This document shows positions 23,197-26,558 of a stretch of 43,028 bases of DNA, piece by piece. Position 1 is the stretch's first letter. The number at the start of each line of letters is the position of its first letter. The notes under the pieces were generated by a model. That model was not told the DNA's origin, ran no database searches, and saw only the letters and a program-made list of their open reading frames with translations. This DNA is from a virus. The position numbers and the translations under genes are program-made. The stretch spans positions 1 to 43,028 of the IMG/VR virus record IMGVR_UViG_3300048112_000374; one strand, 5' to 3'.

Positions 23197-23220
23197 AAGT
23201 GTAATACCAAGTGTAATACC
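23197..23220. repeat. two tandem 12-bp repeats filling a convergent gap
   Basis: AAGTGTAATACC occurs twice head to tail and fills the whole gap between the converging stop codons of the frameshift ORF and the lipoprotein gene. A related GTGTAATACC lies at about 23304. No hairpin terminator is present in this gap. Confidence 0.75.
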
Positions 23221-25595
23221 TACCAATTAAGCAAGAATCCTATTTCAAAAGTGTTATACTCTTCGGTGTTCATAGATGCTCTTGCATAAAAAGAGTTATA
23301 CCGGTGTAATACCGAAAACTTGCCTAAGTCTAATTCACGTGATGCATCATACTCTAGTACATCTGCAAACCCTACAGTAGTGCTATCTAAACTACGATAT
23401 AAATCATAACCCAAACTTACATAAGTTGTGCCAAGTTTAGAATTAAACTTTCCTGTGATATCTGCAAACAATTTTCCATCTACCATACTAAACGAATCAA
23501 TAGTAACATTGTGTGTACTGTTTTGTTCTGTGAATCCGTTTACGTCTGTGTGGTATGCTTCTGCACCATATGACGTATACCATGTATCATTTATATATGT
23601 TACTTGCTCTACAAAAATACTAACTGTGCTGTAATCAACGTCAGCTGAACCTGTGCCGTAGTGCTTTGTAGGGTTCAGTAAAGACATAGTGTTGTCCACA
23701 TAATTAATGCCAAAATGTATATTGTCATCCACATAGTCAAATCCAACAAAACTGCCATTGTTATCTCCTGTAAGTTTTCCTGCACTAAATCCAAATGTAT
23801 CTGTTCTATGAGTGTAGCCTGCCATACCGAATGTTTCCATATCTGTAGCAAACAACGATGTTGAACGTTGATTCTGTCTCAAGTCTGTGAACAGCATTTT
23901 GCTTTTAAATATTTCATCAACGTATGCTTTAGGCTTGTTAGTAATTTCTAACATCATTTCCATTAACGGTGGATCTAATACTTGAAAGAATGTTTGCACA
24001 CTTTCTGTATCACTAAAAGTTGTTGTTGATGCGATAAAGTCATAAAAGTACTTGTTGTCTATTTCTACTGGGAAGTAAGGAGCATAGTCATCAAACTTAG
24101 GAAAGTCATCATATATCGAGAATGTACCATCTTCATTAATCAGTGCATAAGTACCAAACACAGTGTCTACGATATCTAAGTCTCCATCACCGTCGAAGTC
24201 TAATATTTCTAAATTACCTTCGCCATTCCAATAACAGGGACCATCTGAATTTGGACATAAGCCGTTAACATACTTTGTGTCTGGATTAACAGAACTTGTG
24301 ACATCGCTAAATGTTTCGTCTCCATTGTTTAAGAAAAACTGTACAGCTCTGCCGTCATAATAAGGATCATGTTTAGTAGATGCAAGTATGATGTCTAATA
24401 AACCGTCTCCATTAAAATCAAATGCTTTTATATCATTTGCATTTCCGTTTGTACTGTAATAGTTATCTGGTAATTCAGTCCAGCCTCTATTACGCCAATC
24501 ATTATTTCCATCATTCCAAAATACTGCACCTGAACTGTTTTTGTATGTTTCAGCAAATCCGTTTTCGGCGGCTTCTTCTGTATTAAACCAACCAACTGCT
24601 ACATCACCGTGCCCATCATTGTCAAAGTCACCGATTGTAGCCGCTGTGGCAAAAACATTTACTGCTTGTGTTGGAAACTTTTTGTTTGCAGTAAAATTAC
24701 CTGCACCGTCATTAATAAGCATTGCCCATCCCATGTGATGGTTGTCAATATGTGGTGATGCAATTGCAGTAAATATATCCATATCTCCGTCACCGTCAGC
24801 ATCACCAAAGTCTGCATCATGTGAAAAACACCCACTATTGTAGTCGCTTGGAGCACACTTATCAAATAGTTCTTCCATAGGTAGATGCGTATCACCTTTG
24901 TCGTAAAACTTCCCATTGTCGCTTAGTACAAGTGTAGTACCTTGATATAAGTCGTCAATGCCATCGCCATTAAAGTCTGCAACCACTAAACCTTTTTGGT
25001 GTTCAGTATTGTTGTCGCAGTCTGAGCCTCTAAAACAAGGATTACCTTCTGGAAACAAATCGTTACTTAATACAAAGTTTCCGTCACCGTCATTTAAAAA
25101 CGCAAACAAAAAACTGTTAGGTTCAAATTCTAACTTGTCATGTCCGGTCCACAATGCCATATAAAAATCTTGCCATCCGTCACCGTTCAAATCTGCTCTA
25201 ATAACTTGACCAAACTGTGGAAAACTATTAGCAACATCAGTGTCTGCATATTCATAGCCTGCATGAGTTCCAGTAATAGTAGAACGGAAAAATCCATAGT
25301 CTGCTATTTTGTATTTTTCTGTAGGAGCAGGTAGACCAGTAGTAGTGTAATCAGTCATATCAAATTTGTGTGTTACACTAGATGTATATCCCGACAAATT
25401 AGTAGTATACGATTTAGTCCAAGAATCAAATTCATGTCGTTGGTCAGTGGGTGTGGATTGCGTAGGCGCCGGCGCAACAGCCGTTTGAACTTGCGGCGCG
25501 GCGGAGCCGCCACCGGAAGCACAAGATACTAATGCGAGACCTACTATTGCAATTATACTTACATCAGCAACCGTTTTGATTATTTTATTTAACAT
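23220..25595 (-). CDS. FG-GAP/VCBS-repeat lipoprotein with predicted C-terminal beta-barrel
   Basis: This is a 791-residue protein with its start at ATG 25595, about nine bases after AGGGGA. The N-terminus is a lipoprotein signal ending LALVSC, followed by a Gly/Ser/Pro/Thr linker. Six calcium-binding D-x-(N/D)-x-D-G-x-x-D motifs (DLNGDGWQD, DFNGDGIDD, DADGDGDMD, DFDNDGHGD, DFNGDGLLD, DFDGDGDLD) span about residues 130-475, marking an integrin-like beta-propeller. The last 230 residues alternate in strands and end in an aromatic residue (FLLNW), like outer-membrane barrels. It should be anchored in the host outer membrane. It is the last gene of an operon with a host-type promoter, which argues for a role during infection rather than in the virion. 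Superinfection exclusion or surface adhesion are inferences. Confidence 0.8.
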   Translation of the reverse strand: MLNKIIKTVADVSIIAIVGLALVSCASGGGSAAPQVQTAVAPAPTQSTPTDQRHEFDSWTKSYTTNLSGYTSSVTHKFDMTDYTTTGLPAPTEKYKIADYGFFRSTITGTHAGYEYADTDVANSFPQFGQVIRADLNGDGWQDFYMALWTGHDKLEFEPNSFLFAFLNDGDGNFVLSNDLFPEGNPCFRGSDCDNNTEHQKGLVVADFNGDGIDDLYQGTTLVLSDNGKFYDKGDTHLPMEELFDKCAPSDYNSGCFSHDADFGDADGDGDMDIFTAIASPHIDNHHMGWAMLINDGAGNFTANKKFPTQAVNVFATAATIGDFDNDGHGDVAVGWFNTEEAAENGFAETYKNSSGAVFWNDGNNDWRNRGWTELPDNYYSTNGNANDIKAFDFNGDGLLDIILASTKHDPYYDGRAVQFFLNNGDETFSDVTSSVNPDTKYVNGLCPNSDGPCYWNGEGNLEILDFDGDGDLDIVDTVFGTYALINEDGTFSIYDDFPKFDDYAPYFPVEIDNKYFYDFIASTTTFSDTESVQTFFQVLDPPLMEMMLEITNKPKAYVDEIFKSKMLFTDLRQNQRSTSLFATDMETFGMAGYTHRTDTFGFSAGKLTGDNNGSFVGFDYVDDNIHFGINYVDNTMSLLNPTKHYGTGSADVDYSTVSIFVEQVTYINDTWYTSYGAEAYHTDVNGFTEQNSTHNVTIDSFSMVDGKLFADITGKFNSKLGTTYVSLGYDLYRSLDSTTVGFADVLEYDASRELDLGKFSVLHRYNSFYARASMNTEEYNTFEIGFLLNW

Positions 25596-25881
25596 GTTTA
25601 CAATTTCCCCTAAATGTATATCCCGGACAACTACACTTACCATCTTCGATAGTGTATACTTTACCATTTGAACCTTGCACTGTGATAACACCTGGTGCTA
25701 GTTCTTCTTCACGCTCACCGATCTTCTTAAACTTTCTGCGTGACTTGGAGAACTGCTTCATTGGATTTTTGAACACTGTGTCATTGTGCTGAACAAGATG
25801 TCCTGCACCATTCACATGGTAAATGCCGTTAGCAATTTTAAGATCACCCCAGTCGGTTACTTCTTGTAATATCTCAATCAT
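25585..25881 (-). CDS. SWIM zinc-finger-like small protein
   Basis: This is a 98-residue protein ending in CSCPGYTFRGNCKHVK, which fits the SWIM motif C-x-C-x(n)-C-x-H placed at the extreme C-terminus. The middle is basic (FSKSRRKFKKIGEREEE). SWIM fingers bind DNA or proteins in many contexts, and small phage SWIM proteins are usually unassigned. Its ATG overlaps the preceding stop (ATGA), and its end overlaps the lipoprotein start by eleven bases. It is therefore coupled in one operon, and early expression is expected. Confidence 0.65.
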   Translation of the reverse strand: MIEILQEVTDWGDLKIANGIYHVNGAGHLVQHNDTVFKNPMKQFSKSRRKFKKIGEREEELAPGVITVQGSNGKVYTIEDGKCSCPGYTFRGNCKHVK

Positions 25882-26102
25882 GATTGACTCAACTTGTCAT
25901 GCATTAATAAGTTCTCAACTTCACTTGGATCGTGCAAAAACACTTTTTCCAATTCAGTTATTTCTTTAAGATGTGTTTTGCCATCATCGTACTCAGTACG
26001 CACAAAAAGAATCTTATCTGAAATACGTTCAAACACTTCAAGGGGCATCAGCAAATCACTGTACCCGTCGATGCGAACATATTTTTTAGTCTTTACAGCC
26101 AT
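25878..26102 (-). CDS. small protein of unknown function
   Basis: This is a 74-residue protein, mixed alpha/beta by composition (KKYVRIDGYSDLLMPLEVFE, then charged helices). The ATG directly follows the upstream stop, and its TGA overlaps the SWIM gene start. No family recognised. Its tight packing between two other small early-type genes is the only functional hint. Confidence 0.6.
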   Translation of the reverse strand: MAVKTKKYVRIDGYSDLLMPLEVFERISDKILFVRTEYDDGKTHLKEITELEKVFLHDPSEVENLLMHDKLSQS

Positions 26103-26558
26103 TTACACCAACTCCGCTATTTTAGTTTCGATTTGCTTAAAGCCCATGCCGTCTACCATGTGGAACTCGCCATTGTATTCAACAATGTCGCCAACTGATA
26201 GTGAGTGCATGTCTCTGAAAGTTACAACCGCGCCATCCTTGCGAGTGATAGTCTTCATGGTGTAACCGCTTACGAATGCTTCGTCCCATTCGTCCTCGCC
26301 AGTCTCATCATTGTAGTAGTAACCGTTCAATACTTTGAAAACAGTTTCTAACGTACTACCATGGAAGTCTGCAACTTCACATACCTGTGTGTAATGCTCA
26401 AACATCTCAGGCTTGTAACCTTCTGAACCTTTGTGCATCACTTCCATATGAGTGTTATACTCTGGAAACTTCTTAGCAGTCTCAGTGTGACCGCCTTCTG
26501 GACCGTTAACAAAGTCATATACTGCTTCGCTTAACTTAATTTGATATACTTTATACAT
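26103..26558 (-). CDS. hypothetical protein, first gene of the lipoprotein operon
   Basis: This is a 151-residue protein starting MYKVYQIKLSEAVYDFVN, chosen because TAGGAG lies just upstream and the promoter lies further upstream. The motifs PEMFEHYTQVCEVADFHGS and MHSLSVGDIVEYNGEFHMVDGMGF resemble a widespread phage/bacterial protein type with a C-terminal SVGD-I small beta fold, function unknown. It is transcribed from TTGACT-N16-TATAAT and leads an operon of two small genes and the surface lipoprotein. Confidence 0.65.
   Translation of the reverse strand: MYKVYQIKLSEAVYDFVNGPEGGHTETAKKFPEYNTHMEVMHKGSEGYKPEMFEHYTQVCEVADFHGSTLETVFKVLNGYYYNDETGEDEWDEAFVSGYTMKTITRKDGAVVTFRDMHSLSVGDIVEYNGEFHMVDGMGFKQIETKIAELV

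Follow-up and report, generated by a model that had tools for sequence, protein, structure and literature searches.

Some autotransporters of type Va, for example NalP and SphB1, carry a lipobox and are lipidated, and the lipobox of such proteins has been defined as [LVI][ASTVI][GAS]C in a review which also describes type V proteins as having few cysteines, spaced a few residues apart (PMC8151025). Among phage lipoproteins, Llp of phage T5 is a small periplasmic protein which jams a receptor of the TonB-dependent type (PMC9586334). An autotransporter on phage DNA is known as well, namely, Eaa of enteropathogenic Escherichia coli, located in a prophage region (PMC12399667). Here, we describe an operon in a viral record of IMG/VR (IMGVR_UViG_3300048112_000374), the analysed stretch of which, 43,028 bases long, is referred to as the window. 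The main product of this operon is a 791-residue lipoprotein predicted to join an FG-GAP beta-propeller to a C-terminal domain with an autotransporter translocator fold.

This protein shares with NalP and SphB1 the lipobox signal, the N-terminal passenger and the C-terminal helix with a 12-strand translocator, but its passenger is an FG-GAP propeller instead of a subtilase, and it is encoded by a T4-like phage. The N-terminal Sec signal, recognised by inspection of the sequence and modelled as a helix (residues 2-22), stands on the same chain as the passenger and the barrel. The lipobox, LVSC, fits the definition given above, and its region (LVSC, then CASGGGS) is invariant across the seven closest members. 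A previous reading of the DNA from its sequence only (the sequence-only reading) had reported a 791-residue lipobox protein with six DxNxDGxxD calcium motifs, and this count proved exact, with D-x-[ND]-x-[DN]-G-x-x-D motifs at residues 135, 207, 265, 323, 393 and 466. Pfam recognises the passenger through FG-GAP_3 (PF13517, E 1.4e-23), and both PF13517 and PF01839 score above the cut-off.

An AlphaFold model was built from an alignment of 16 relatives, with a mean predicted local distance difference test (pLDDT) score of 80 overall and of about 90 in the C-terminal domain. The modelled propeller resembles seven-bladed propellers such as LGI1 EPTP, and also DDB1 propellers, with a Z score of about 22. 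The C-terminus, LLNW, had been read as a strand-rich, barrel-like end closed by Trp; the Trp and the barrel were borne out, while the domain is better described as a helix followed by about 12 strands, in the manner of autotransporters. Indeed, residues 553-791 superpose on the NalP translocator (1uyn) with a Z score of 24.4 and a root mean square deviation of 2.8 A over 228 aligned residues (VIA-align of the AlphaFold model). Other translocators also match, namely, EspP (Z 22-23.5), EstA (Z 22.2) and Hbp, the three spanning 21 to 23.5, and EspP is the top Foldseek match of the model. In this model, the C-terminal helix and barrel have the type Va autotransporter translocator fold, and the overall architecture, a lipoprotein made of a propeller and an autotransporter-like barrel, is predicted with high confidence.

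At the sequence level, none of the 16 members matched the autotransporter families of Pfam or NCBIfam at E values up to 1, and a profile of the barrel found no match among PDB sequences. The lipoprotein had no match in GenBank phages (tblastn, E 0.01) or in PHROGs, and PADLOC returned none. Besides the lipid Cys, every phage member tabulated carries an even number of cysteines (2, 4 or 6), mostly in close pairs which are gained or lost together, as expected for disulfides formed outside the cytoplasm. The even-odd hydropathy of the modelled strands displayed too mixed a pattern to be of use. A hit to the insecticidal toxin TcB (PF12256) was discarded, scoring 21.9 bits for a cut-off of 24.8 and covering one FG-GAP loop (residues 382-414).

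The lipoprotein resembles T5 Llp and similar exclusion lipoproteins in being a phage lipoprotein, probably made before the late phase and directed to the outer membrane. It differs from them, as the sequence-only reading had pointed out, in size and design, with 791 residues, a propeller and a predicted barrel of its own. Eaa, for its part, is an E. coli prophage adhesin, as opposed to a lipidated propeller of T4-like phages. Foldseek also matched the predicted structures of proteins of uncultured Caudovirales in BFVD (A0A6J5L9S5 and A0A6J5KUW0, E 7e-22 and 6.7e-8); one of the matches is titled repeat domain and others 'Autotransporter beta-domain', with about 11-12% identity and no characterised function. 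Since Eaa lies in a prophage region and UniProt titles of uncultured phage proteins mention autotransporter domains, phage-borne autotransporters are not wholly new. What does appear to be new is the version with a lipidated propeller that T4-like phages carry, along with its behaviour as a cassette and its link to SAR86 bacteria, presented below. Searches of the literature on phage-encoded exclusion autotransporters, SAR86 jumbo phages and FG-GAP phage lipoproteins brought up no description of this system, many subscription papers lying beyond the search.

With regard to the operon, the near-consensus sigma70 promoter and the three small genes, including one for a SWIM protein, were found as previously reported (Table 1). 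In some relatives, other small genes replace ORF151 as the first gene. The 3' end of the SWIM gene overlaps the start of the lipoprotein gene by 11 bases, and the two genes overlap wherever checked among viral contigs. Given that the SWIM frame ends past the ATG of the lipoprotein gene, and that the sequence immediately ahead of this ATG is conserved in the phages checked, translation of the two genes may be coupled. The dN/dS ratio of the whole lipoprotein gene is 0.06-0.10 when the window is compared with L001, L002 and L006 (L-numbers label the compared contigs or stretches, viral or cellular), indicating a real gene under constraint. SWIM relatives are encoded in 124 viral stretches, and the lipoprotein gene comes next in 25 of the best 80 (L153-L232); by eye, many different genes are found downstream of these SWIM relatives, deformylase-like, IMP dehydrogenase/GMP reductase-like and others.

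Promoter-like sites matching the consensus at 9 or more of 12 positions are no commoner in the stretch scanned than expected by chance (14, versus 17.3 in shuffles), the operon promoter being the only 11/12 site in it. As the seven same-site relatives examined (L001, L003, L004, L005, L006, L010 and L021) all have an 11/12 site ahead of the operon despite their differing first genes, it stands above chance, and sites of 11-12/12 likewise precede the SWIM and lipoprotein genes in the second genome context. At the 3' end of the operon, terminator-like sites did not exceed chance numbers. Among the gene starts tested, an 11/12 sigma70 element was found only before the operon and the gp55 gene, as TTGACT-16-TATAAT at -62/-63 (the gp55 copy being at 32228). 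In contrast, a late motif, [TG]ATAAATA, lies 24-49 bases upstream of the portal, tape-measure, gp26-like, 1919-residue and tail-fibre genes, and was not found before the operon genes. In T4, gp55 directs late transcription. By analogy with T4, the lack of the late motif and the promoter held in common with the gp55 gene suggest that the operon is transcribed early or in the middle of infection rather than late, a timing read from motifs and in line with the early-type expression first proposed.

That the gene is phage-borne is also supported. The portal protein of the window shares 55% identity with that of PA5oct-kind jumbo Pseudomonas phages, and the window encodes a T4-type capsid, a protease, a gp26-like baseplate protein, SbcC/SbcD and a gp55-like late sigma factor; the contig is that of a T4-like jumbo phage of bacteria. 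Homologues of the lipoprotein are present on about 30 IMG/VR contigs, found by alignment scans (18), downstream of SWIM genes (11) or beside the gp26-like gene (one, L136), and these contigs reach 250-340 kb. In 12 out of 12 contigs whose gp26-like gene is at least 65% identical, the cassette is located between this gene and segE. The distance between the two is 5.2 kb in the window versus 0.7 kb in L137-L141, where neither the SWIM nor the lipoprotein gene is found at this site, and L137 carries the cassette elsewhere on its contig. In a second phage group, the SWIM-lipoprotein pair occupies another site, among non-structural genes. Occupied and empty borders, together with this second location, denote a cassette that is accessory and has at least two genome sites. 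An insert between core genes, missing in relatives and endowed with its own promoter, is what defines a moron, and the operon is best read, from these gene-order comparisons, as an accessory, "moron"-like cassette of T4-like jumbo phages.

Table 1. Features of the operon, of its main product and of the surrounding region (positions in the window).
Feature	Position	Strand	Basis
Sigma70-type promoter: -35 TTGACT, 16 nt, -10 TATAAT	26593..26620	-	11/12 consensus match
ORF151, first operon gene	26103..26558	-	Weak YodL-like match below cut-off; L006 homologue 76%
ORF74, small gene, no family match	25878..26102	-	Homologues 42-93% in same-context relatives
SWIM zinc-finger protein, 98 aa	25585..25881	-	Pfam SWIM PF04434, 21.1 bits (cut-off 19.6)
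791-aa FG-GAP lipoprotein with autotransporter-like C-terminal domain	23220..25595	-	ATG at 25595
Signal peptide with lipobox LVSC, predicted lipid Cys at residue 25	25521..25595	-	Sequence; Cys25 invariant in 16/16 aligned phage and SAR86 members
Propeller passenger (FG-GAP type), residues 92-543, with the six calcium-type motifs	23967..25322	-	Pfam, AlphaFold, Z about 22
Predicted autotransporter translocator fold: helix 544-575 and barrel of about 12 strands 580-788	23223..23966	-	AlphaFold; structural match to NalP 1uyn
gp26-like gene (T4 baseplate), bordering the accessory region on the left	22037..22903	+	PF12322 3.8e-19; PHROG 150 baseplate hub
segE-like GIY-YIG gene, right border of accessory region	28072..28497	-	PF19835 2.3e-34; synteny
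gp55-like late sigma factor gene	31290..32165	-	PHROG 12791 1.1e-90

The comparison of host genomes with phages, suggested in the sequence-only reading, revealed that the family extends beyond phages: a homologue is present in 10 of the 203 genomes of the SAR86 order, while 368 other Gammaproteobacteria genomes had none at E 1e-25. That reading had missed these chromosomal relatives, as well as the translocator fold and the insertable cassette. The SAR86 proteins (L028 and L109-L117) are homologous over their full length, with identities of about 35% for the main clade and 46-48% for L109, and their predicted layout matches that of the phage protein. For the SAR86 barrel, the assessment relied on profile homology (E values as low as 5e-25 in the main clade) and on strand layout, propellers having filled the structural match list of the SAR86 model. 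In contrast to the phage genes, the SAR86 genes are cellular and unlinked to SWIM or phage genes; they lie in plain chromosomal settings, and their barrels are strongly diverged except in L109. The latter is encoded on a contig of 218 kb next to glycosyltransferase, UDP-sugar dehydrogenase and GMP synthase genes. In the tree, it is nested among the phage proteins (support 97/97), with a long end branch which makes its exact placement unsure. The sequence relationships argue for an exchange of genes between SAR86 and these phages, in either direction, and SAR86 bacteria are likely the hosts.

Other matches were not retained. L026, a metagenome-assembled genome contig assigned to Piscirickettsiaceae (72% identity), was dropped as host evidence: its contig is only 3.1 kb long, it groups within the clade of phage proteins, and none of the 56 other genomes of the family has a homologue. 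Its positions 461-2239 encode a propeller-only protein, 72% identical to the phage propeller, without lipobox and with a DxDxDG-type N-terminal segment, which may be a phage fragment binned in error or else the result of a transfer from phage to cell. Most of the 80 genome-contig matches ranking below L028 were generic FG-GAP repeats, and the plasmid matches were generic VCBS propellers at 26-28%.

The two domains of the lipoprotein have not evolved in concert. L003 and L010 are 86% identical in the propeller and 36% in the barrel, whereas L003 and L019 are 54% and 74% identical, respectively. The trees of the two domains conflict at well-supported forks, L003 and L004 joining L005 and L010 in the propeller tree, but L017 and L019 in the barrel tree. 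Barrels have been exchanged between phages. The propeller remains 44-65% identical among distant members, and the barrel is absent from L021, L023 and the distant L161.

From these elements, the following mechanism can be proposed. The operon would be transcribed early or in mid-infection from its own sigma70 promoter, and its main product would be exported by Sec, then acylated at Cys25. The C-terminal helix and barrel would insert in the outer membrane and display the calcium-dependent FG-GAP propeller, derived from or sharing a common ancestry with a SAR86 surface protein, on the surface of the infected cell. Such a display would probably change what can stick to this cell, and its likeliest benefit would be that the propeller covers or occupies a surface ligand, resulting in a poorer adsorption of further phages, i.e., superinfection exclusion. 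On the strength of the model, surface display of the propeller is likely. We also lean towards a remodelling of the host cell by this early-made and surface-displayed protein, while exclusion as its main role is put forward tentatively. Several points weigh against this proposal as a whole. The barrel having no sequence match to autotransporters in Pfam, NCBIfam or PDB, its fold rests on prediction, and the barrel-less L021 and L161 indicate that it is inessential to the family. Further, the host assignment derives solely from gene sharing. Lastly, the propeller is more conserved than expected in a race against a receptor or rival phages, which favours a constant ligand rather than exclusion, or at least would suit such a ligand equally well.

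This last point touches on the strongest alternative, according to which the phage gene is a copy of a host function, an auxiliary gene replacing or boosting the SAR86 surface protein. Its propeller would bind a conserved glycan or particle and maintain uptake, attachment or aggregation instead of blocking phages. Full-length relatives on SAR86 chromosomes, several of them adjoining dnaG-rpoD-like genes, speak for it, as do the strong purifying selection on the lipoprotein gene and the identity between phage and SAR86 propellers (44-54%) when the barrels of the main SAR86 clade, which have diverged far more, retain only 15-21%. However, a gene present in so few genomes of the SAR86 order answers no core host need, and no ligand or enzyme motif was identified in the lipoprotein. 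We regard this alternative as rather unlikely.

The orientation of the protein could also be the reverse, with the barrel inserted and the propeller, anchored at its two ends, remaining periplasmic and acting on receptors from the inside, as T5 Llp does on FhuA. Llp is indeed periplasmic (PMC9586334), and, for lipidated autotransporters, the leaflet in which the lipid ends up has not been determined (PMC8151025). Yet a helix followed by a 12-strand translocator is the arrangement that exports passengers, and the close spacing of the cysteines fits translocation, which makes a periplasmic propeller improbable. A structural, host-recognition or lysis protein is more improbable still. The gp26-like baseplate gene and, after it, a 1404-residue tape-measure-like gene are neighbours of the operon, but the signal peptide and lipobox, the absence of late motifs, the non-structural neighbours in other phages and the retention of structural genes by relatives without the insert all agree with the sequence-only reading, which had argued against a virion role. 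Finally, bacterial DNA misassembled into a viral contig, an idea to which the SAR86 chromosomal relatives lend some colour, can be dismissed almost entirely in view of some 30 contigs of up to 340 kb, many with identical borders and operon.

Some observations concern the region around the cassette. Divergent from the operon, two adjacent genes of 147 and 172 residues (26662-27605, plus strand) are present in most same-context phages, and the first has a weak cupin match. Between this pair and segE, a highly conserved, apparently non-coding stretch (about 27706-28018, minus strand) is common to six phages, including L137, which lacks the lipoprotein cassette at this site. Its predicted fold has 83 pairs, both partners being changed in one sequence or more at 25 of them, and an Rfam search gave no match; this stretch is a candidate new structured RNA. 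Elsewhere in the window, two large tail proteins with BppL_N-type matches are encoded on the minus strand (1829-5131 and 5202-10961), and the 1100-residue one has an additional Mtd N-terminal domain.

Known exclusion lipoproteins, T5 Llp among them, are of small size and target a host receptor, whereas the operon described here appears to provide complete type V machinery for surface display, invisible to sequence-family searches and common to phage and SAR86. The retention of the propeller while barrels are exchanged hints at a pressure on the exposed barrel. It is quite possible, if short of probable, that gene exchange between lytic T4-like phages and their SAR86 hosts lets the phages produce, in early infection, self-displaying propeller lipoproteins which re-dress the infected cell, propeller and barrel being separate modules and barrels being swapped between phages; this would constitute a surface-remodelling class of exclusion or adhesion factors not described before. 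SAR86 is an abundant, hardly cultured ocean lineage, the phages of which are poorly known, and the gene gives a concrete link to this likely host, along with a testable idea of how lytic phages may alter the exterior of the cells they infect.

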